This document shows, piece by piece, positions 7,807 through 40,663 of a stretch of DNA of 40,663 nucleotides; the first letter of the stretch is position 1; each line of letters begins with the position of its first letter. This stretch comes from an uncultured Clostridia bacterium (GTDB lineage Bacteria; Bacillota; Clostridia; Oscillospirales; Ruminococcaceae): positions 1 through 40,663 of the forward strand of contig CANQNK010000020.1 of NCBI GenBank assembly GCA_947625195.1. The letters run 5' to 3'. The position numbers and the translations under genes were made by a program. The notes under the pieces were generated by a model. The model was not told where the DNA came from. It did not search any database and worked only from the letters and a program-made list of their open reading frames with translations.

Positions 7807-9228
7807 CTACTTTTCAAGGAATTTCTTTATCTGTGCATTGGCTTTTTCAAGTTCCGAATCAACCAAAGGTGAAAACTTCTCCCTTGCCTGAGTCCAGGTG
7901 TAAAGATTACCCTGCTGATCAGCCTCTGAAGTGCTTGCATAGATCCTGTTGGTCAAAGAAACTCCGGCCTCAAAACCGCTGTTGTCATCACCCATAAGAG
8001 CCGAAACACCATATGCAGGCTCAAACAGCATAACAACATTTTCGGGATTTGATACCTCCTTCATAAGCTCGTAATCCTCAGCAGACCAGTTCGGGTTATC
8101 CTCAAGCCACTTATCCTTTGCGTTCTGAAGATACTCTGAGTCGGTCTGAGCAACTCTGTAACACTCGAAAAATGCTCTCGCAGCGTCCTTCTTTTCAGAT
8201 CCCTTAACCCACATAAACGAGTTGATGCTTGCGGTTGTGATAGGCTTTTCGCCCTCGTAGCTCGGATCAGCCGGGAAAGGAACTATTCCCCACTCATCGC
8301 CGTCCTTAGGCCCTCCGGTACCAGTAGCAGCCCAATCTCCCATAGCATAGAATAATACGTTCTGGTTGAACGCATCCGCAGCACTGTTAAAGAAAGTGCC
8401 GCTCAGCACATATTCCTGCTTACGCCAATCAGCAAGTCTTTCCTCAGCAGCAGCGATCTTTGGGCTGTCCATATTAGACTTATAAGTTGCGTTGTCATCA
8501 GTAGTAACGATAGTCTCACCGGTCTGCTGAACATACTGAGGAGCATAATAGCCGGTTATTCCGTATCTCTTCTCATCTCCGTTTGCGCTGTTTACATAAG
8601 AGCTCATAAGGTCGTCCATGGCATCATAGTCCCACTTTCCTTCATCATAAAGGGTTCTCGGGTCCTCAAAGCCGTTCTCAGTCATAACCTTCTTGTCATA
8701 GAAAATATATGATGATGGATAATACTCAATAGGCGCAACGTAATGCTTGCCGTTAAGCGAATACTGGTCTGCTGTTTCCTTAACAGCCTCCCACATCGGA
8801 GTGTTAAAGTCTATTATCTCGTCAAGCGACTGATAAAATCCCTGAATTACCTGACACGGAAATGCCAGCGCGCTGTATGGGAATAAATCGGGAAGATTCT
8901 TTCCCGAAGTAACCGCAGCACCAAGCTTTGTAAACTGGTTTGATGATGTAACTCTCTGCCACTTGATTTTTCCGCCCTTTTGCTCAAACAGACTCAAACC
9001 GACCGTCTTTTCCGCATTGCCGGACGGATTAAGGTCATAAATCGCCATCCATAAAAGAGTGTTTTCAGCCCCCTCAGGGATGCTTTTAATGTCGTCGGTA
9101 GTTGCAACATCCACGACATCTTTTTTAGAAGATTCTTTAGAATCTCCCTCGTCCGAACCGCATCCGGCAAAGGCAAGCGCAGTAACGACAGCCAATGCAC
9201 CGGCAAGAAATCTTTTAATATTTTTCAT
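7807..9228 (-). CDS. Extracellular solute-binding lipoprotein, paralog 1
   Basis: A 473-residue ABC-type family 1 solute-binding protein. It has a lipoprotein signal with lipobox AFAG and Cys23, then a Ser/Asp/Lys-rich linker, then the bilobed binding domain. Conserved blocks shared with its two neighbours include FPCQVIQGFYQSL, GKHYVAP, YGITGYYAPQYV-QTGET, MWVKGSEKKDA and YGVSALMGDD. It should sit on the outer face of the membrane and hand a substrate, perhaps an oligosaccharide, to an ABC importer; the ligand is not readable from sequence. RBS GGAGGAG lies before the ATG. No permease or ATPase gene is adjacent. It is the most downstream of three tandem copies and has its own terminator and a weak promoter candidate. 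Confidence 0.9.
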   Translation of the reverse strand: MKNIKRFLAGALAVVTALAFAGCGSDEGDSKESSKKDVVDVATTDDIKSIPEGAENTLLWMAIYDLNPSGNAEKTVGLSLFEQKGGKIKWQRVTSSNQFTKLGAAVTSGKNLPDLFPYSALAFPCQVIQGFYQSLDEIIDFNTPMWEAVKETADQYSLNGKHYVAPIEYYPSSYIFYDKKVMTENGFEDPRTLYDEGKWDYDAMDDLMSSYVNSANGDEKRYGITGYYAPQYVQQTGETIVTTDDNATYKSNMDSPKIAAAEERLADWRKQEYVLSGTFFNSAADAFNQNVLFYAMGDWAATGTGGPKDGDEWGIVPFPADPSYEGEKPITTASINSFMWVKGSEKKDAARAFFECYRVAQTDSEYLQNAKDKWLEDNPNWSAEDYELMKEVSNPENVVMLFEPAYGVSALMGDDNSGFEAGVSLTNRIYASTSEADQQGNLYTWTQAREKFSPLVDSELEKANAQIKKFLEK

Positions 9229-9285
9229 TCATACTCCTCCACTCATTAAGTATTTAATAAAGGGATCCAGCCCATTATTTTATAA

Positions 9286-9314
9286 ATTATCATATAGATA
9301 TAGTGTACTGTCTG
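9286..9314 (-). promoter_or_regulatory. Candidate promoter for solute-binding paralog 1
   Basis: Minus-strand CAGACA (4 of 6), 17 bp, GATAAT (5 of 6), about 58 bp before the start codon. The match is modest. Confidence 0.35.
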
Positions 9315-9377
9315 TTAAGAGATTATTTCTTTGTTTTTCTGACATTTATTAGCATTTTTTATGTTAAAACTTAAATC

Positions 9378-9406
9378 GAAAGGACATCGCATAGCGATGC
9401 CCTTTT
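9378..9406 (-). terminator. Terminator of solute-binding paralog 2
   Basis: Hairpin GGGCATCGC / GCGATGTCC with a 3-nt loop and one G-U pair on the minus strand, then TTTCGATTT. The U-tract is short and interrupted. Confidence 0.55.
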
Positions 9407-9419
9407 CGGTAATAAAATT

Positions 9420-10856
9420 TTATTTATTAGAAGAAATAAACTTCTGAATAGATTCGTTAAGCTTCTTAAGCTCACTTTCAACTGTAGTTGAATGCTTTTC
9501 TCTTGTCTGAGTCCATGTAAAGGTTTCACCCTGCTCGTTAGGCGCAGAAGTGCTCTTGTAAATCCAACCGACAAGAGATACACCTGTCATAAATCCGCTG
9601 AAGTCGTCTCCCATAAGGCTGGATACACCATATGCGGGATCAAATATCATAAGATTCTTTTCAGGATCGGCAGCATCTCTGATAACCTGATAAGCTTCTT
9701 CGCCCCAGTTCGGATTATTAGCAAGCCACTTTTCCTTCTGGTTCTCAAGATACTTTGTATCCGTTTGAGCAACTCTGTAGCACTCATAGAAAGTCTTAAC
9801 AGCGTCCTTCTTTTCAGAGCCCTTGACCCACATTACAGAATCATCAGACATGGACGCGCTTGAAATCGGCTTATCGCCCTCGTATGTAGGATCCTTCGGG
9901 AACGGAACTACACCCCATTCGTCGTCAGCACCCGGAGTATGGCTGTCAATAGCAGCCCACTCTCCCATGCAATAGAAGAGAATATTGGACTCAAAGGCTG
10001 TCGGAGCATCTCCGATCCAGTCAAATTTTACGTATCCCTGCTTCTGCCAGTCACCAAGTCTCTCCTCGGCAGCAGCGATCTTCGGGCTGTCAAGATTAGA
10101 AGTATACGTGATGTTGTCATCGGTTTTAACGATAGTCTCGCCTGTCTGAGCAACATATTGAGGAGCATAGAATCCGTTGATTCCATATCTTTCCTCATCG
10201 CCGCTTGCTCCCTGACAATACTCGCTCATCATGTCGTCAAGTGCGTCGTAATCCCACTTACCCTCATCGTAAAGCTCAAGCGGGTCTTCAAAACCGTTTT
10301 CGTTTATTACCTTCTTATCGTAAAACATAAGGGAAGTCGGTTTGTATCCGAACGGTGCTACATAGTGCTTGCCGTTAAGAACAAACTGGTCTGCCGTGTC
10401 CTTGATTCCTACCCACATAGCGGAATCAAAATCTATAATGTCGTCAAGAGGCTGATAAAAGCCCTGTACGACCTGACAAGGGAAAGCAAGCTGACTGTAA
10501 GCAAACAGGTCAGGAACATCCTTGCCGGAAGTTACCGCCGCACCAAGCTTTGTATACTGGTTGGTTGAAGTAACTCTCGACCACTTGACAGAACCGCCCT
10601 TGTCCTCAAAAAGGGTAAGTCCAACGGATCTCTCAGAATTTCCCGTAGGATTAAGATCTCCGATTCCCATGTACAACAGTTCCTTATCAGCGCCATCGGG
10701 AATAGCTGCAATATCGTTTGATGTAGCGACTTTAACAGTATCCTCCTTCACGGAAGAACCTTCACTGCTGTCCTTGCTACCGCCTTCGCAGCCCGCAAAA
10801 GAAAATGTTGTAACAATTGCCAAGCAGCCTGCGAATAATCTTTTAAGATTTTTCAT
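9420..10856 (-). CDS. Extracellular solute-binding lipoprotein, paralog 2
   Basis: A 478-residue family 1 solute-binding lipoprotein, colinear with its neighbours. The lipobox is AFAG-type (SFAG, Cys23), followed by a Gly/Ser-rich linker. Shared blocks include FPCQVVQGFYQPL, GKHYVAPFGY, GKWDYDALDDMMSEYC, RYGINGFYAPQYV, MWVKGSEKKDAV and YGVSSLMGDDFSGF. By eye it is closer to paralog 3 than to paralog 1, which also keeps the DDFSGFM block. It should be lipid-anchored outside the membrane and deliver its ligand to an ABC transporter encoded elsewhere. A strong RBS (TAAGGAGG) and a good promoter (10888-10916) show it can be transcribed independently of the upstream copy. Confidence 0.9.
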   Translation of the reverse strand: MKNLKRLFAGCLAIVTTFSFAGCEGGSKDSSEGSSVKEDTVKVATSNDIAAIPDGADKELLYMGIGDLNPTGNSERSVGLTLFEDKGGSVKWSRVTSTNQYTKLGAAVTSGKDVPDLFAYSQLAFPCQVVQGFYQPLDDIIDFDSAMWVGIKDTADQFVLNGKHYVAPFGYKPTSLMFYDKKVINENGFEDPLELYDEGKWDYDALDDMMSEYCQGASGDEERYGINGFYAPQYVAQTGETIVKTDDNITYTSNLDSPKIAAAEERLGDWQKQGYVKFDWIGDAPTAFESNILFYCMGEWAAIDSHTPGADDEWGVVPFPKDPTYEGDKPISSASMSDDSVMWVKGSEKKDAVKTFYECYRVAQTDTKYLENQKEKWLANNPNWGEEAYQVIRDAADPEKNLMIFDPAYGVSSLMGDDFSGFMTGVSLVGWIYKSTSAPNEQGETFTWTQTREKHSTTVESELKKLNESIQKFISSNK

Positions 10857-10887
10857 TATAATCCTCCTTACTTAATTATTTATGTTT

Positions 10888-10916
10888 ATTATAATGCTTT
10901 TGTTCAAAAAAGTCAA
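10888..10916 (-). promoter_or_regulatory. Sigma-A promoter for solute-binding paralog 2
   Basis: Minus-strand TTGACT, 17-bp spacer, perfect TATAAT, ~32 bp before the start codon. Confidence 0.75.
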
Positions 10917-11018
10917 CTAACACGTGAATAAGACAGACTATTTTTGTGTATACCGCACAAATAGTAACCGGATAATTATGCATAATTGCTAAAATAATAT
11001 TTGTATTTTATTAAAATC

Positions 11019-11052
11019 AAAAAAAGAGAGCACTGCAACCGGCCGCGCTCTC
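11019..11052 (-). terminator. Second terminator after solute-binding paralog 3
   Basis: GAGAGC / GCTCTC stem enclosing a GC-rich loop, followed on the minus strand by TTTTTTTGA. It backs up the hairpin at 11102-11143. Confidence 0.7.
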
Positions 11053-11101
11053 ACATTTTAATCTTTATTTTTATGTAATAGCTTCTCATTATATAATATG
11101 T

Positions 11102-11143
11102 CAAAGCCGAGTGTTATGCTGAAAAGCTGACATCTCGGCTTTG
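11102..11143 (-). terminator. Stem-loop directly after solute-binding paralog 3
   Basis: Perfect 10-bp stem CAAAGCCGAG / CTCGGCTTTG nine bases beyond the stop. On the minus strand the following bases (ACATATTATATA) are only partly T, so it may act as an RNA 3' stabiliser together with the hairpin at 11019-11052. Confidence 0.55.
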
Positions 11144-11152
11144 ATTTTATAT

Positions 11153-12577
11153 TTACTTATCGGACTTTAAAAACTTTTGAATCTGCGAGTTTATGGACTT
11201 TATCTCACTGTCAACGGTTGTAGAGAATTTTTCCTTAGACTGTGTCCATGTATAGGTTTTACCCTGCTCGTCAGCAACAGCCGTGCTCTTATAGAGCCAG
11301 TTTGCAAGACACACTCCCGACATAAATCCGCTGAAGTCGTCGCCCATAAGACTTGAAACGCCGTATGCCGGATCAAACATAAGAATGTTGTCGTCGGGAT
11401 TTGAGATTTCCGCCATAAGGTCAAAATCCTCTTCTGTCCAGGTCGGACTTGCAAGCATAGCTTTTTCCCTGCCGTTTGCCGCATAATCCGGATCTGTCTG
11501 AGCAACTCTGTAGCACTCAAAGAACGCTCTTACGGCGTCCTTCTTTTCAGAGCCCTTTACCCACATATATGTCGTAATGGTAGCGGATGAAATAGGCTTT
11601 TCTCCCTCATATGTAGGATCCTTCGGGAACGGAACCATTCCCCAATCCCCAGCTTCCGGGGGACCGCTTGTGCCCATTGCAGCCCATGTACCCATCGAAT
11701 AGAAGAGAATATTTTTCTCAAATGCCTCTGACGCAGAACCTATCCAGTTAGGCTCAATATAGCCTTCCTTCTTCCAGTTTGCAAGTCTGTCCATAGCAGC
11801 GGCTATCTTCGGGCTGTCAAGGTTTGATCTGTAAGTGATGTTATCGTCTGTCATAACGAGTGTTTCGCCCGTCTGCTGAACATATTGAGGAGCAAACCAA
11901 CCGTTTATGCCGTATCTTACCTCATCGCCCTCTGCTCCCTTGCAGTAATCACTCATCATATCGTCGAGTGCGTCATAATCCCAGTTGCCCTCGTAATAAA
12001 GGTCAATAGGATCGTCAAAGCCGTTTTCATTTATAACGCTCTTGTCGTAGAATAAAAGCGCCGTTAATCCGTACTCAAGCGGTGCAACATAATGCTTTCC
12101 GTTAAGTACAAACTGGTCAGCAGTTTCCTTAACTCCGCTCCAAAGCGGATCGTTAAAGTCTATGATATCGTCGAGAGACTGGTAGAATCCCTGTACGACC
12201 TGACACGGAAAAGCAAGAGTGCTATACGTAAACAGGTCAGGAGCGTCCTTACCCGCTGTTACGGCAGCGGCAAGCTTTGAGTACTGATTGCTTGAAGTAA
12301 CTCTCTGCCACTTGATTTTTCCGCCCTTATCCTCAAACAGGGTCAGACCAACAGTTCTGTCGTCGTCGTTGGTTGGGTTTAAATCGTAATTTCCCATGTA
12401 AGTAAGTGTGCCGTCCTCTCCGTCTGCAATAGGTGCGATGTCGTTTTCGGTAACAACCTTTACGTCTTCATCCTTTTTGGAAGAAGACTCTTTTGCACCG
12501 CCTTCACCGCATGCAGCGAAAGAAAGCGTCAAAAGCACCGCCAGCGCGCCTGCAAGCAGCCTTTTTGCGTTTTTCAT
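11153..12577 (-). CDS. Extracellular solute-binding lipoprotein, paralog 3
   Basis: A 474-residue family 1 solute-binding lipoprotein and first in the row of three. The signal peptide ends SFAAC with Cys23 as the lipidated residue. Shared blocks are FPCQVVQGFYQSL, GKHYVAPLEYG, GNWDYDALDDMMSDYC, RYGINGWFAPQYVQQTGET, MWVKGSEKKDAVRAFFECYR and YGVSSLMGDDFSGFM. The three proteins align end to end without large gaps, so they arose by tandem duplication of a whole gene. RBS TAAGGAGG is present. Upstream is an extended -10 promoter candidate. No sugar-transport permeases (MalF/MalG type) follow; the next gene on this side is rnhA on the other strand. Confidence 0.9.
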   Translation of the reverse strand: MKNAKRLLAGALAVLLTLSFAACGEGGAKESSSKKDEDVKVVTENDIAPIADGEDGTLTYMGNYDLNPTNDDDRTVGLTLFEDKGGKIKWQRVTSSNQYSKLAAAVTAGKDAPDLFTYSTLAFPCQVVQGFYQSLDDIIDFNDPLWSGVKETADQFVLNGKHYVAPLEYGLTALLFYDKSVINENGFDDPIDLYYEGNWDYDALDDMMSDYCKGAEGDEVRYGINGWFAPQYVQQTGETLVMTDDNITYRSNLDSPKIAAAMDRLANWKKEGYIEPNWIGSASEAFEKNILFYSMGTWAAMGTSGPPEAGDWGMVPFPKDPTYEGEKPISSATITTYMWVKGSEKKDAVRAFFECYRVAQTDPDYAANGREKAMLASPTWTEEDFDLMAEISNPDDNILMFDPAYGVSSLMGDDFSGFMSGVCLANWLYKSTAVADEQGKTYTWTQSKEKFSTTVDSEIKSINSQIQKFLKSDK

Positions 12578-38479: not shown

Positions 38480-38737
38480 TACAAAATAAAAAGTCCTGCC
38501 CTGATAAGGACAAGACGTAATCTTGCTTAACCACCTTAAGGTAAAAGAGCCAACACTCCTCAAGACCAATAACGGAGTCTTAAACCAGCCGTCTGCGCTT
38601 ACAATTTTTGCCAAGCAAAAACTTCGGCGAAGCCGCTCGTGAGTGAACTTCAGCGAATTCGGCCTGAAAAGCTTTCACCATGCGCTTTTCTCTCTGAAAA
38701 GGAAGAAATATCCGCCTACTCTCTCAGTCATCGCGTT
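38480..38737 (-). promoter_or_regulatory. T-box leader (tRNA-Phe) of pheST
   Basis: Read on the minus strand. The leader opens with a stem I segment GAGAGAGTAGGCGG. The specifier-loop region has GAATTCGC, in which TTC (38655-38657) is a phenylalanine codon. The T-box bulge AAGGTGGTTAAGC (38526-38538) carries TGGT at 38530-38533, complementary to the ACCA end expected for tRNA-Phe. A terminator stem GTCTTGTCC / GGGCAGGAC (38493-38516) with TTTTTATTTT follows. Uncharged tRNA-Phe would stabilise the antiterminator and let transcription enter pheS. The order promoter - stem I - T-box - terminator - pheS is complete. The exact stem I fold was not computed. Confidence 0.9.
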
Positions 38738-38743
38738 TAGAAA

Positions 38744-38773: not shown

Positions 38774-38828
38774 GAGTTTTTTACCATTTTTTGTGACCGG
38801 GTAAGTTTTATAATTAAATGCGAAAGGA

Positions 38829-38857
38829 AAAAGCGTAGCAAAACGCAGCTATGCTTA
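38829..38857 (-). other. Hairpin between pheST promoter and DUF2726 gene
   Basis: AAGCGTAGC with GCTATGCTT (one mismatch on the minus strand), followed there by TTTTTCC. It may be a backup terminator for the DUF2726 gene. Confidence 0.4.
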
Positions 38858-38881
38858 ATCGCTTAATTGCCCCTTGCGCAT

Positions 38882-38941
38882 AAAAATACTGATGTCAAGG
38901 GCGGCGAAGCCGTATATTTTACCCTTTACATCAGTATTTTT
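38882..38941 (-). terminator. Long inverted repeat, terminator of the DUF2726 gene
   Basis: AAAAATACTGATGT (38882-38895) pairs with ACATCAGTATTTTT (38928-38941), extended inward by AAGGG/CCCTT. An inner GC hairpin CGGCGAAGCCG sits in the loop. On the minus strand it ends in TTTTTA just after the stop at 38948. The stem is unusually long and runs through on both strands. Confidence 0.7.
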
Positions 38942-38947
38942 TATGTG

Positions 38948-39520
38948 CTATTCTTCAGATTTGCGATTAAGGATATTTTGGATTTTGTTTTCTAATTCAT
39001 CTGAGTTTCTTACTCTCAGAAGCTTATATCCTGTGTTTTGTAATACTTCATTTTTAAAATTGTCGCTTTCAATTGCTTTCCTCGTATTGTGTGTGTAATC
39101 GTCTAGCTCAATTATGAGTTTTACTTCTAAATCTTCTCTGCTTGCTAGAGCAAAATCAATATGTTTAGATTTAATTCTTCCAAATAGTCTATAATATTCG
39201 CTGTTGTCTTTATAGTTTTGGATTTTTATTAAATCGGCAAGCCTTACTTTTGATAGTACAACAAGATTAAGCTTCTCAGATATTACATTTAAGCTTTTAT
39301 AGAAAATCAGTTCTTTTTTGCTTAATAAGCCTTTTCTTATGTATTTGCTTTCATAATCTCGTTTTGATTCGATTTCCTCAACTTGTTGATAATTATAAGA
39401 TTTATATACTTGTTTTTCTCTTTCTCTTTTTCTAACAATCAGATTTTTTTCAATTTTAACTAAAATTAAAATTAGTAGAATTATTATTATCACTGATAAT
39501 ATGATTTCCAATTTTAACAC
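38948..39520 (-). CDS. Membrane-anchored DUF2726 (PD-(D/E)XK-like) protein
   Basis: Up to 190 residues from GTG 39520. TTG 39511 (187 residues) is favoured because GGGG stands 8 bp before it and transcription should begin near 39522. One N-terminal membrane helix (residues ~4-21, almost all Ile/Leu/Val) is followed by a basic stretch (RKRERE). A DUF2726-type domain covers residues ~70-180: LVVLSKVRLADLI, HIDFAL (D122), KLIIELDDYTH (E138) and LQNTGYKLLRV. D...ExD with a following His is the PD-(D/E)XK nuclease-like layout of this family, whose function is unproven. The gene is AT-rich, unlike pheST, and faces away from the phage-like genes. It may be cargo or a defence or replication function of the acquired element. 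Confidence 0.8.
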   Translation of the reverse strand: MLKLEIILSVIIIILLILILVKIEKNLIVRKREREKQVYKSYNYQQVEEIESKRDYESKYIRKGLLSKKELIFYKSLNVISEKLNLVVLSKVRLADLIKIQNYKDNSEYYRLFGRIKSKHIDFALASREDLEVKLIIELDDYTHNTRKAIESDNFKNEVLQNTGYKLLRVRNSDELENKIQNILNRKSEE

Positions 39521-39528
39521 CCCACATA

Positions 39529-39557
39529 ATTATATAATTTTGTTATTTTTTTGTCAA
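39529..39557 (-). promoter_or_regulatory. Consensus sigma-A promoter of the DUF2726 gene
   Basis: Minus-strand perfect TTGACA, 17-bp spacer, perfect TATAAT. The predicted start lies 2-11 bases before the possible GTG/TTG start codons, so the leader is very short. The -35 overlaps that of the divergent promoter. Confidence 0.8.
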
Positions 39558-39579
39558 CATCAGCTTATGCTGATTTAAT
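39551..39579 (+). promoter_or_regulatory. Candidate promoter of the inovirus-like genes with operator-like palindrome
   Basis: TTGTCA (39551-39556), 17-bp spacer, TTTAAT (39574-39579). The spacer is filled by a 16-bp inverted repeat ATCAGC-TTAT-GCTGAT (39559-39574). A protein bound there would block this promoter and touch the divergent -35. Confidence 0.5.
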
Positions 39580-39604
39580 AAATTTAATTAAAGGAGTTTT
39601 AAGA

Positions 39605-39880
39605 ATGATTAAAGTTGTAGGTTTCGAAACAAAAAAGGGTAGTTTCACTAATCAGCAGACAGGTGAGGTTATTGATTATGATAATCTTATAATTTATTAT
39701 GTTAGTGATCTAAAAGAAGAAGTTGAGGGCTTATATTCATCAGAAATTAAAATTAAAAGCAAAGACATTAAAAAGATTCTCGGCGATATAAAGCCTTCTG
39801 AGATGATTAATAAGGAAATAATTCCTTATTATATTCCTGTGGGTAATAGTGTAGTTCTTAATCGCATTGACCTTGCATAG
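39605..39880 (+). CDS. Probable inovirus-type ssDNA-binding protein
   Basis: ATG 39605 (MIKVVGFETKKG) is used; AAAGGAG lies 10 bp upstream, while the upstream frame start at 39551 coincides with the promoter. The 91-residue protein is rich in short beta strands: MIKVVGFE, SFTNQQTGEVIDYDNLIIYYV and EIIPYYIPVGNSVVLNRI. I see no membrane segment. In filamentous phages a small OB-fold ssDNA-binding protein (gpV of M13) precedes the coat genes, coats the single-stranded genome and is displaced at assembly. The size, fold character and position directly before tiny membrane proteins and the coat gene support that role. The assignment is by context and pattern; a homolog search would settle it. Confidence 0.6.
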   Translation: MIKVVGFETKKGSFTNQQTGEVIDYDNLIIYYVSDLKEEVEGLYSSEIKIKSKDIKKILGDIKPSEMINKEIIPYYIPVGNSVVLNRIDLA

Positions 39881-39892
39881 TTGGTGTAAAAA

Positions 39893-40039
39893 ATGGATTC
39901 AGAGTCAATTGAAATTCTAAATAAGATATACATCCTACTAGTTAATTTCTTTGGTTTTTTCAAGGGTGTATTTTACATAATTCTTATATTTTGTATATCT
40001 TATTTCCTTGGTAAGTTTATTTACAATTTAATCTGGTAA
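39893..40039 (+). CDS. 48-residue membrane protein, possible inovirus minor coat protein
   Basis: ATG 39893 to TAA 40037-40039 encodes MDSESIEILNKIY followed by a long hydrophobic segment (ILLVNFFGFFKGVFYII, then LIFCISYFLG) ending KFIYNLIW. It lies between the ssDNA-binding-like gene (12 bp after its stop) and the major coat gene. In M13 and relatives genes VII and IX, each 32-33 residues with one membrane helix, occupy exactly this place and form the end of the virion that emerges first. The ribosome site is weak (GGTG), so translation may be coupled to the gene before it. The position and composition are clear; the minor-coat role is inferred. Confidence 0.6.
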   Translation: MDSESIEILNKIYILLVNFFGFFKGVFYIILIFCISYFLGKFIYNLIW

Positions 40040-40090
40040 AAATGCATTTTTATAAAGTAGTTTTTTGTTTCATTTAGAAAGGAGTTTTTT

Positions 40091-40270
40091 ATGGTAAGTT
40101 TATTTGCGGTAGAAGGCGCTGACACCTCTGCAATAACTACAGCTATTACTTCTATGGTTACAGAGGTAAAAGAAGTTATTTCTGCAGTTCTGCCTATAGT
40201 GCTTCCGGTGGCTGCTATTATTGTAGGCGCTACTATTGCGGTTCGCCTTTTCAAGAAATTTTCCAAGTAG
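40091..40270 (+). CDS. Major coat protein of a filamentous phage (gpVIII-like)
   Basis: A 59-residue protein with an excellent ribosome site (AAAGGAG, 6 bp before ATG 40091). The N-terminal third (AVEGADTSAITTAITSMVTEV) is acidic and amphipathic. A hydrophobic helix (LPIVLPVAAIIVGATIAV) comes next, then a basic tail RLFKKFSK. M13 mature coat protein begins AEGDD and ends VIVGATIGIKLFKKFTSK, so the helix end and DNA-facing tail are nearly the same here. There is no long signal peptide: only about five residues precede the A-x-EG segment, so the product may be inserted as made. It would insert in the membrane and wrap the ssDNA in thousands of copies. A 10-bp hairpin follows, as after M13 gene VIII. 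Confidence 0.88.
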   Translation: MVSLFAVEGADTSAITTAITSMVTEVKEVISAVLPIVLPVAAIIVGATIAVRLFKKFSK

Positions 40271-40280
40271 GAGGCAGTTA

Positions 40281-40306
40281 ATGTGCCTGAGCGATGTCAG
40301 GCACAT
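40281..40306 (+). other. Hairpin directly after the major coat gene
   Basis: ATGTGCCTGA pairs with TCAGGCACAT (10 bp, 6-nt loop), beginning 11 bases after the coat stop. No T-run follows. It covers a possible upstream ATG (40281) of the next gene. In M13 a terminator stands at this place and keeps coat mRNA high relative to gene III. Confidence 0.75.
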
Positions 40307-40340
40307 AATAGTGTCCCCTAATATAAAAAGGAGCTTATCT

Positions 40341-40663
40341 ATGTTTAAGAAGTTTTTAATAATTCAGTCTGTGATAATTATTTTATTTCTTAATATAACA
40401 AGCTCCTTTGTTTATGCCGGATTTTTTTCGGACAATATTGAAACTCATACTGTCCCTGCTCCAACCGTCCCCTCAGACGGCAATCTGTTATCTAATGATG
40501 AATTAGTTACAGAGTTCAACGAAGAATATTTTAATGACAATCACCTTGTCGAAGACGAAACCGAAGCAGGGGAAACTTTCGATGAGAAAGCAGAGTTTCA
40601 TACTACTGAAAATTTATCAGGATTGCCTAATTCGTCAAAATCAACAAACGACGAGCTGAGATC
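40341..40663 (+). CDS. Secreted gpIII-like phage protein (3' partial)
   Basis: The frame is open from ATG 40341 (AAAAGGAG upstream) to the window edge, 107 codons. It starts with a signal peptide: MFKKFLIIQ, a hydrophobic core (SVIIILFLNITSSF) and a likely cleavage after VYA. The mature start is GFFSDNIETHTVPAPTVPSDG, then a long acidic, Ser/Thr/Asn-rich stretch without secondary-structure pattern. A large secreted protein after the coat gene is the place of gpIII/pIII-like attachment proteins and of its ortholog in other inoviruses. The in-frame ATG 40281 has AGGAGG in front and would add 20 residues before the signal peptide, but it sits in the hairpin. The C-terminal anchor and most of the gene are outside the window. 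Confidence 0.65.
   Translation, partial: MFKKFLIIQSVIIILFLNITSSFVYAGFFSDNIETHTVPAPTVPSDGNLLSNDELVTEFNEEYFNDNHLVEDETEAGETFDEKAEFHTTENLSGLPNSSKSTNDELR

Follow-up and report, generated by a model that had tools for sequence, protein, structure and literature searches.

The stretch of DNA analysed here (the window) is contig CANQNK010000020.1 (C20; 40,663 nucleotides) of an uncultured Ruminococcaceae genome (GCA_947625195.1; G000), and it ends inside a filamentous phage. Positions 38800-40663 comprise 1.86 kb from the left end of an inovirus prophage, here called prophage A, interrupted by the contig end. Very probably this is a temperate filamentous phage in its integrated state, whose own ends, judged from sequence, are transposon ends. 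Because position 40663 is the physical end of C20, the rest of prophage A was followed in relatives and on further contigs of the own genome; two genomes of the same genus, G001 and G013, supplied the complete element. The initial annotation had described an inovirus structural module from 39605 onward. This identification holds, as the coat protein passes the Pfam inovirus gp8 cut-off and the complete element occurs in both same-genus genomes. The prophage itself starts at 38800, upstream of 39605, and a minus-strand gene at 38948-39520 belongs to it.

The missing genes lie at the start of contig C15, which carries a Zot/pI ATPase (PF05707, 24.3 bits; cut-off 20.3), a Rep_trans replication initiator (PF02486, 128.3 bits; cut-off 29.6) and a transposase of the IS30 family (NCBIfam NF033563, 219.7 bits; cut-off 80). 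The parts matching the window and those matching C15 are contiguous in G001 (L024, ~6,653 bp) and G013 (L026, ~6,736 bp). The gene order in both is single-stranded DNA (ssDNA)-binding-like protein, 48-aa protein, coat, pIII-like protein, 74-aa protein, Zot (246 aa), Rep (316 aa) and transposase. The pIII-like gene encodes 645 aa in G001 and is split into two frames in G013. Zot begins ~2.2 kb after the coat gene in these relatives, within the ~6 kb in which the initial annotation had expected such an ATPase, and the Rep it had also anticipated is present. Where it had suggested an integrase or a Xer-dependent dif site, an IS30 transposase was found. Use of Xer by prophage A was rejected, as the ends of the element are transposon ends.

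An exact 15-bp duplication surrounds the whole element in all three genomes (own, G001 and G013), and its sequence is different in each. In the window, the left copy of this target-site duplication, CATTTTTTGTGACCG, occupies 38785-38799; the right copy lies at ~3887-3901 of C15, and the match ties the two contigs together. The adjoining left end of prophage A (38800-38833, plus strand) is an imperfect inverted repeat with the core AAATGCGAAA, identical in the three genomes, and the right end on C15 carries TTTCGCATTT. Across the three genomes the element ends read GGTAAGTTTTATAATTAAATGCGAAAGG on the left and TTTTTTCGCATTTACTATTGACATTTACG on the right, the right end of G013 differing by one base. 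Duplications that are specific to each genome and sit at the phage ends indicate that the transposase integrates the phage itself. In a related inovirus of Anaerotruncus colihominis (L090), whose transposase is 47% identical to that of prophage A, the left end shares TTAAATGCGAAAGG, and a 16-bp repeat borders the element on both sides. Transposase relatives turned up in 47 phage records, among them Faecalibacterium phage Lagaffe (53%); three Spiroplasma records are in the tally. The G013 copy (L026 3175-11546) is flanked by relatives of the same two host blocks, the C15 flank and the pheST side, at another target and with another relative orientation of these blocks than in the own copy.

Several observations weigh against a transposon-ended phage. 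Prophage A is not seen whole in its own genome: the assembly lacks ~0.9 kb of the pIII-like gene, and the join between C20 and C15 is based on the relatives and the matching 15-bp repeat. Moreover, the own rep on C15 is broken by an in-frame stop once 44 codons have been read, and the own transposase has a tail unlike that of both relatives, so the copy present here is probably defective. Among six IS30 inovirus insertions examined (own, G001, G013, L068, L072 and L090), duplications were found in four; for L068 the left end falls beyond the fetched locus, for L072 a search found neither duplication nor end motif, and in the viral contig L104 the end motif was likewise not found. The rep stop and the altered transposase tail would also fit structural genes that are a decayed or domesticated remnant, with the IS30 element as an unrelated selfish insertion alongside. 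Roux et al. 2019 (PMC6813254), in the excerpt available to us, regarded selfish and domesticated transposases as indistinguishable from sequence alone. We nevertheless consider a remnant beside a stray insertion highly improbable, since in three genomes the duplications enclose the whole phage and not the transposase gene, rep is uninterrupted in G001 and G013, and omega between the own copy and G001 is low (0.06-0.24) for coat, Zot, Rep and the DUF2726 gene on the minus strand.

The four plus-strand frames of the window lie where the initial annotation had placed them, in a stretch that is as AT-rich as it had stated (GC 0.26-0.36, vs 0.44-0.48 over pheST). Identity is 96% to G001 (38800-40648) and 92% to G013 (38800-40663), and the three small genes, starting at 39605, 39893 and 40091, are all open in both genomes. 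Between the own copy and G001, the coat gene differs at 10.0 of 47.2 synonymous vs 2.0 of 129.8 nonsynonymous sites; the first frame (ORF1) is identical and thus uninformative on selection. Given that the frames are open in both relatives and that change is mostly synonymous where enough of it exists, they appear to be genes and not chance frames.

The first of them (39605-39880) encodes a probable ssDNA-binding protein of 91 aa, OB-fold-like and in the position of gene V; its alignment (A2) comprises homologues other than those at E 0.003-0.004 (L100, L106 and L058) and those of L007 and L024-L027. It is followed by a membrane protein of 48 aa (39893-40039), which is of equal length in G001 and G013 and gave no family match in profile searches. 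The major coat protein of 59 aa (40091-40270) was recovered by PF19199, above its cut-off, and by PHROG 1646, which places it in phage coat families and not in a non-phage family; it also matches the PH75 coat (E 0.0088). Of the coat rows found, 20 are included in the coat alignment (A3). Two or three coat-like genes stand in tandem in the clostridial inoviruses L068, L090, L063 and L080. The last frame (40341-40663) runs off the contig and encodes the first part of a pIII-like adsorption protein, signal peptide included; a 645-aa homologue lies at L024 7195-9132.

On the minus strand, 38948-39520 encodes a 190-aa protein with an N-terminal membrane helix, recognised by its hydrophobic peak, and a DUF2726 nuclease-like domain (PF10881, 82.5 bits; cut-off 24.7). 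Its omega between the own copy and G001 is 0.06. The gene is preceded by a TTGACA-17-TATAAT promoter match (39529-39557, minus strand) that agrees with the consensus at 12 of 12 positions; of the region's 17 promoter-like sites, against 8.3 expected, no other does so. Membrane-helix nuclease-like cargo recurs in inovirus loci, with DUF2726 in L055, L119, L120 and L121 and NERD in L057, L090 and L028, and relatives without the membrane helix occur in L113, L069 and L066; the Pfam scan of this cargo covered loci other than L055, L069 and L066. In L090 the gene is on the same strand as Zot. Our guess is that the DUF2726 gene serves lysogenic conversion, perhaps with incoming DNA as its target. 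Next to it, a hairpin with a 29-bp stem (38876-38948) has a fold z-score of -9.5 both here and in prophage B, a second inovirus of the same genome. Between the two, which are two independent lineages only, 3 of the 29 pairs are compensated and 2 are lost in B. The hairpin is a possible packaging signal, minus-strand origin or two-way terminator.

Prophage B is split over contigs C19 (L007 1-1878) and C9 (L013 6296-9437). It carries genes for an ssDNA-binding-like protein, a coat, a Zot (80% identical to that of A) and Rep, and no transposase; a complete copy in G001 (L025/L056) has the same arrangement. The HTH (helix-turn-helix) repressors of the two copies are 52% identical (L007 1230-1487 in the own genome, L025 10324-10593 in G001), as if their immunity types differed. 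The repeat that flanks prophage B spans 59 columns and is exact in G001 and 96.6% identical in the own genome. Within it lie a TTGACA-TATAAT promoter and, of a dif-like 11-6-11 palindrome, the left arm and the centre; a xer-like tyrosine recombinase gene of the host follows immediately. We rejected this recombinase as a phage gene, as it is present in 15 of 15 genomes of the genus at 75-100% identity. The palindrome was found in the recombinase leader of all 14 genomes compared, in some with a mismatched pair and in two occupied by B; G003, in which a contig start truncates the xer gene, was not part of this comparison. At up to 2 mismatches, the own genome has one such site.

The recombinase scored below the NCBIfam equivalog cut-offs for XerC (199.1 of 335.15 bits), XerD (192.5 of 329.6), XerA (199.5 of 220) and XerS (151.6 of 267), and in the own genome no other match to it exceeded 37.9 bits, which together make a single-recombinase system likely. 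Among the matches listed, a xer homologue (38-94% identity) was present in 11 of 44 inovirus genome loci found through Zot, vs ~0.26 expected for the 529,425 bases covered if one such gene per 2 Mb is assumed; L086, with a xer at 24%, is not counted, and L056 is G001 itself. Upstream of xer, 7 of 12 loci (these 11 and the viral contig L120) have a palindrome with 10 or more of its 11 pairs, compared with 0.125 in shuffles; L058, L059, L060, L063 and L075 fall below this level. Where both ends were compared, in L056, L060 (Marasmitruncus massiliensis) and L067 (Angelakisella), they share exact blocks of 59, 51 and 23 bp, respectively, and in L056 and L060 the similarity includes a TTGACA promoter. 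These insertions next to xer suggest a dif-like site in several Clostridia genera, testable on plasmids. Next to a xer homologue, L058 (5144-16066) carries an inovirus in two tandem copies that are 99.98% identical and lie 5,450 bp apart. Tandem prophage copies also occur in CTX-type phages.

Prophages A and B share one part of their pIII-like protein almost without change. Already in the window, 40440-40663 is 94% identical to prophage B at the DNA level. In G001, where both pIII genes are complete (A, L024 7195-9132; B, L025 7513-9456), residues 109-329 are identical at 221 of 221 positions and 1.0 of 122.7 synonymous sites differ; the longest exact block spans 664 bp. The corresponding synonymous differences are 115.2 of 148.8 for Zot, 30.9 of 46.3 for the coat and 147.3 of 183.3 for Rep, and the pIII parts beside the shared domain are intermediate (5.7 of 27.0 and 26.0 of 67.2). 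The middle domain itself gave no family match; its place in a pIII-like protein suggests that it would bind the receptor. Recombination between co-resident phages is the simplest reading of this pattern.

As G001 is a metagenome-derived assembly, the shared domain could instead be an artefact in which two similar copies were merged. Assemblers may merge near-identical repeats. The remainder of A and B is near synonymous saturation, so merging could mask no more than the last few differences of a domain that was already shared. The own genome argues in the same direction: both left halves and both right halves of A and B stop at the same two positions bracketing the pIII domain, and at the domain borders own A matches own B better than it matches G001 A (33/33 vs 27/33 and 81/83 vs 73/83). 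We therefore regard an artefact as improbable. Somewhat less remote, yet still unlikely in our estimate, is that A and B each gained the same domain separately from outside because only phages carrying it can enter this host. Selection for a matching receptor would favour such a domain, and G013 A, 94-95% identical to G001 A in two flanking blocks, has an unrelated sequence in its place (51/162 residues). On the other hand, near-zero synonymous change requires a recent common source, and no common outside donor was seen: a search of the 15 genus genomes recovered the domain nowhere else, apart from a weak 42-residue tail in G013, and it had no match in 50,697 phage records.

Exchange inside the cell leads to a model to which we assign about equal chances of being right or wrong. 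Co-resident inoviruses with different integration machines would swap a receptor-recognition cassette by recombination in the conserved parts of pIII, the rest of each phage staying distinct. In addition, clostridial inoviruses would exploit Xer together with a dif-like site in its own leader, the attachment (att) site bringing along a spare promoter for xer, which would keep integration from silencing the recombinase required for excision. If this is true, both prophages carry a key that fits their current host, and the shared pIII domain offers a concrete, testable case of in-cell exchange of a presumed host-recognition part. As a general rule for co-resident inoviruses, sharing of the adsorption domain was rejected. 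In five co-resident pairs, G001 shows it directly and the own genome, its middle being unassembled, is only consistent with it; no such sharing was seen in the other three. Two inoviruses of Anaerotruncus colihominis (L068 and L090) are 91-97% identical in four long blocks and mostly different at ~4.9-7.0 kb, the presumed adsorption genes, and the pairs L061/L072 and L070/L073 have little DNA in common.

From the gene content a life cycle can be proposed for prophage A. The transposase would make a phage circle on which Rep would drive rolling-circle replication. TATAAT lies 9 bp from the left end and TTGACA 6 bp from the right end; on the circle they would abut as a promoter, given 1-2 bases between the ends. 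The OB-fold protein would then cover the ssDNA, and the Zot ATPase would push it through the membrane during addition of coat protein. A secretin profile found no match in the own genome, with 6 of 14 control genomes positive, which would mean that the filament crosses the wall with no secretin. The question of exit from a host of this kind could be addressed directly in cultured carriers such as Anaerotruncus colihominis JM4-15 (IS30 type) or Marasmitruncus massiliensis (Xer type).

Prophage A is inserted ~26 bp from the predicted pheST promoter. A T-box leader of pheST was detected at 38503-38740 (minus strand; 85.2 bits, slightly below the gathering score of 93; E 4e-19). Elsewhere in the window, 7807-12577 holds three paralogous genes in a row (71-75% DNA identity) that by eye resemble solute-binding lipoproteins.

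Inoviruses of gut Clostridia are already known. Enterocloster species secrete them (PMC10061712; here and for the papers below, the comparison refers to the excerpts available to us). These are likewise inovirus prophages of Gram-positive gut Clostridia, for which particles were shown there; the words Xer, transposase, integrase and adsorption are absent from the main text of that paper. The inovirus catalogue of Roux et al. 2019 (PMC6813254) likewise combines Zot/pI and coat genes across a wide host range, notes transposases and reports superinfection exclusion genes shown in Pseudomonas. It left the transposases as either integration or selfish elements, whereas the duplications around prophage A link the transposase with the ends of the phage. 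Spiroplasma vespertilioviruses (PMC6668415) are also inoviruses with IS3 or IS30 family transposases; they are said to be without Rep and to replicate by transposition, while the lineage of prophage A has Rep_trans as well. Long target duplications (16, 23, 25 and 26 bp) are likewise made by the IS30-type IS1630 of Mycoplasma fermentans (PMC3317919), which differs in being an insertion sequence and not a phage, and in its variable duplication length. For prophage B, the closest parallels are XerS/difSL (PMC5357621), a single recombinase with its site adjacent to the gene, and XerL/dif with LME-1 (PMC9765430), a single recombinase with a mobile element that carries a dif mimic. The recombinase beside B differs from these systems in falling below the XerC, XerD, XerA and XerS cut-offs, and its repeat includes the recombinase promoter. 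The phage collection held no close record; Bajarodino and porcine 'Inovirus sp.' GenBank genomes, circular inovirus records of 4.2-8.8 kb from faeces, are distant (Zot 28-37% identical over 55-87% of the protein). Gram-positive inoviruses have been poorly described, and until now their transposases could not be distinguished from stray insertion sequences; the target duplications indicate that the filamentous phage itself is the transposon, which settles the role of the transposase for this lineage. New compared with these systems are phage-wide transposon ends with constant long duplications, a Xer-type partner in the same genome and the adsorption domain that the two prophages share in G001.
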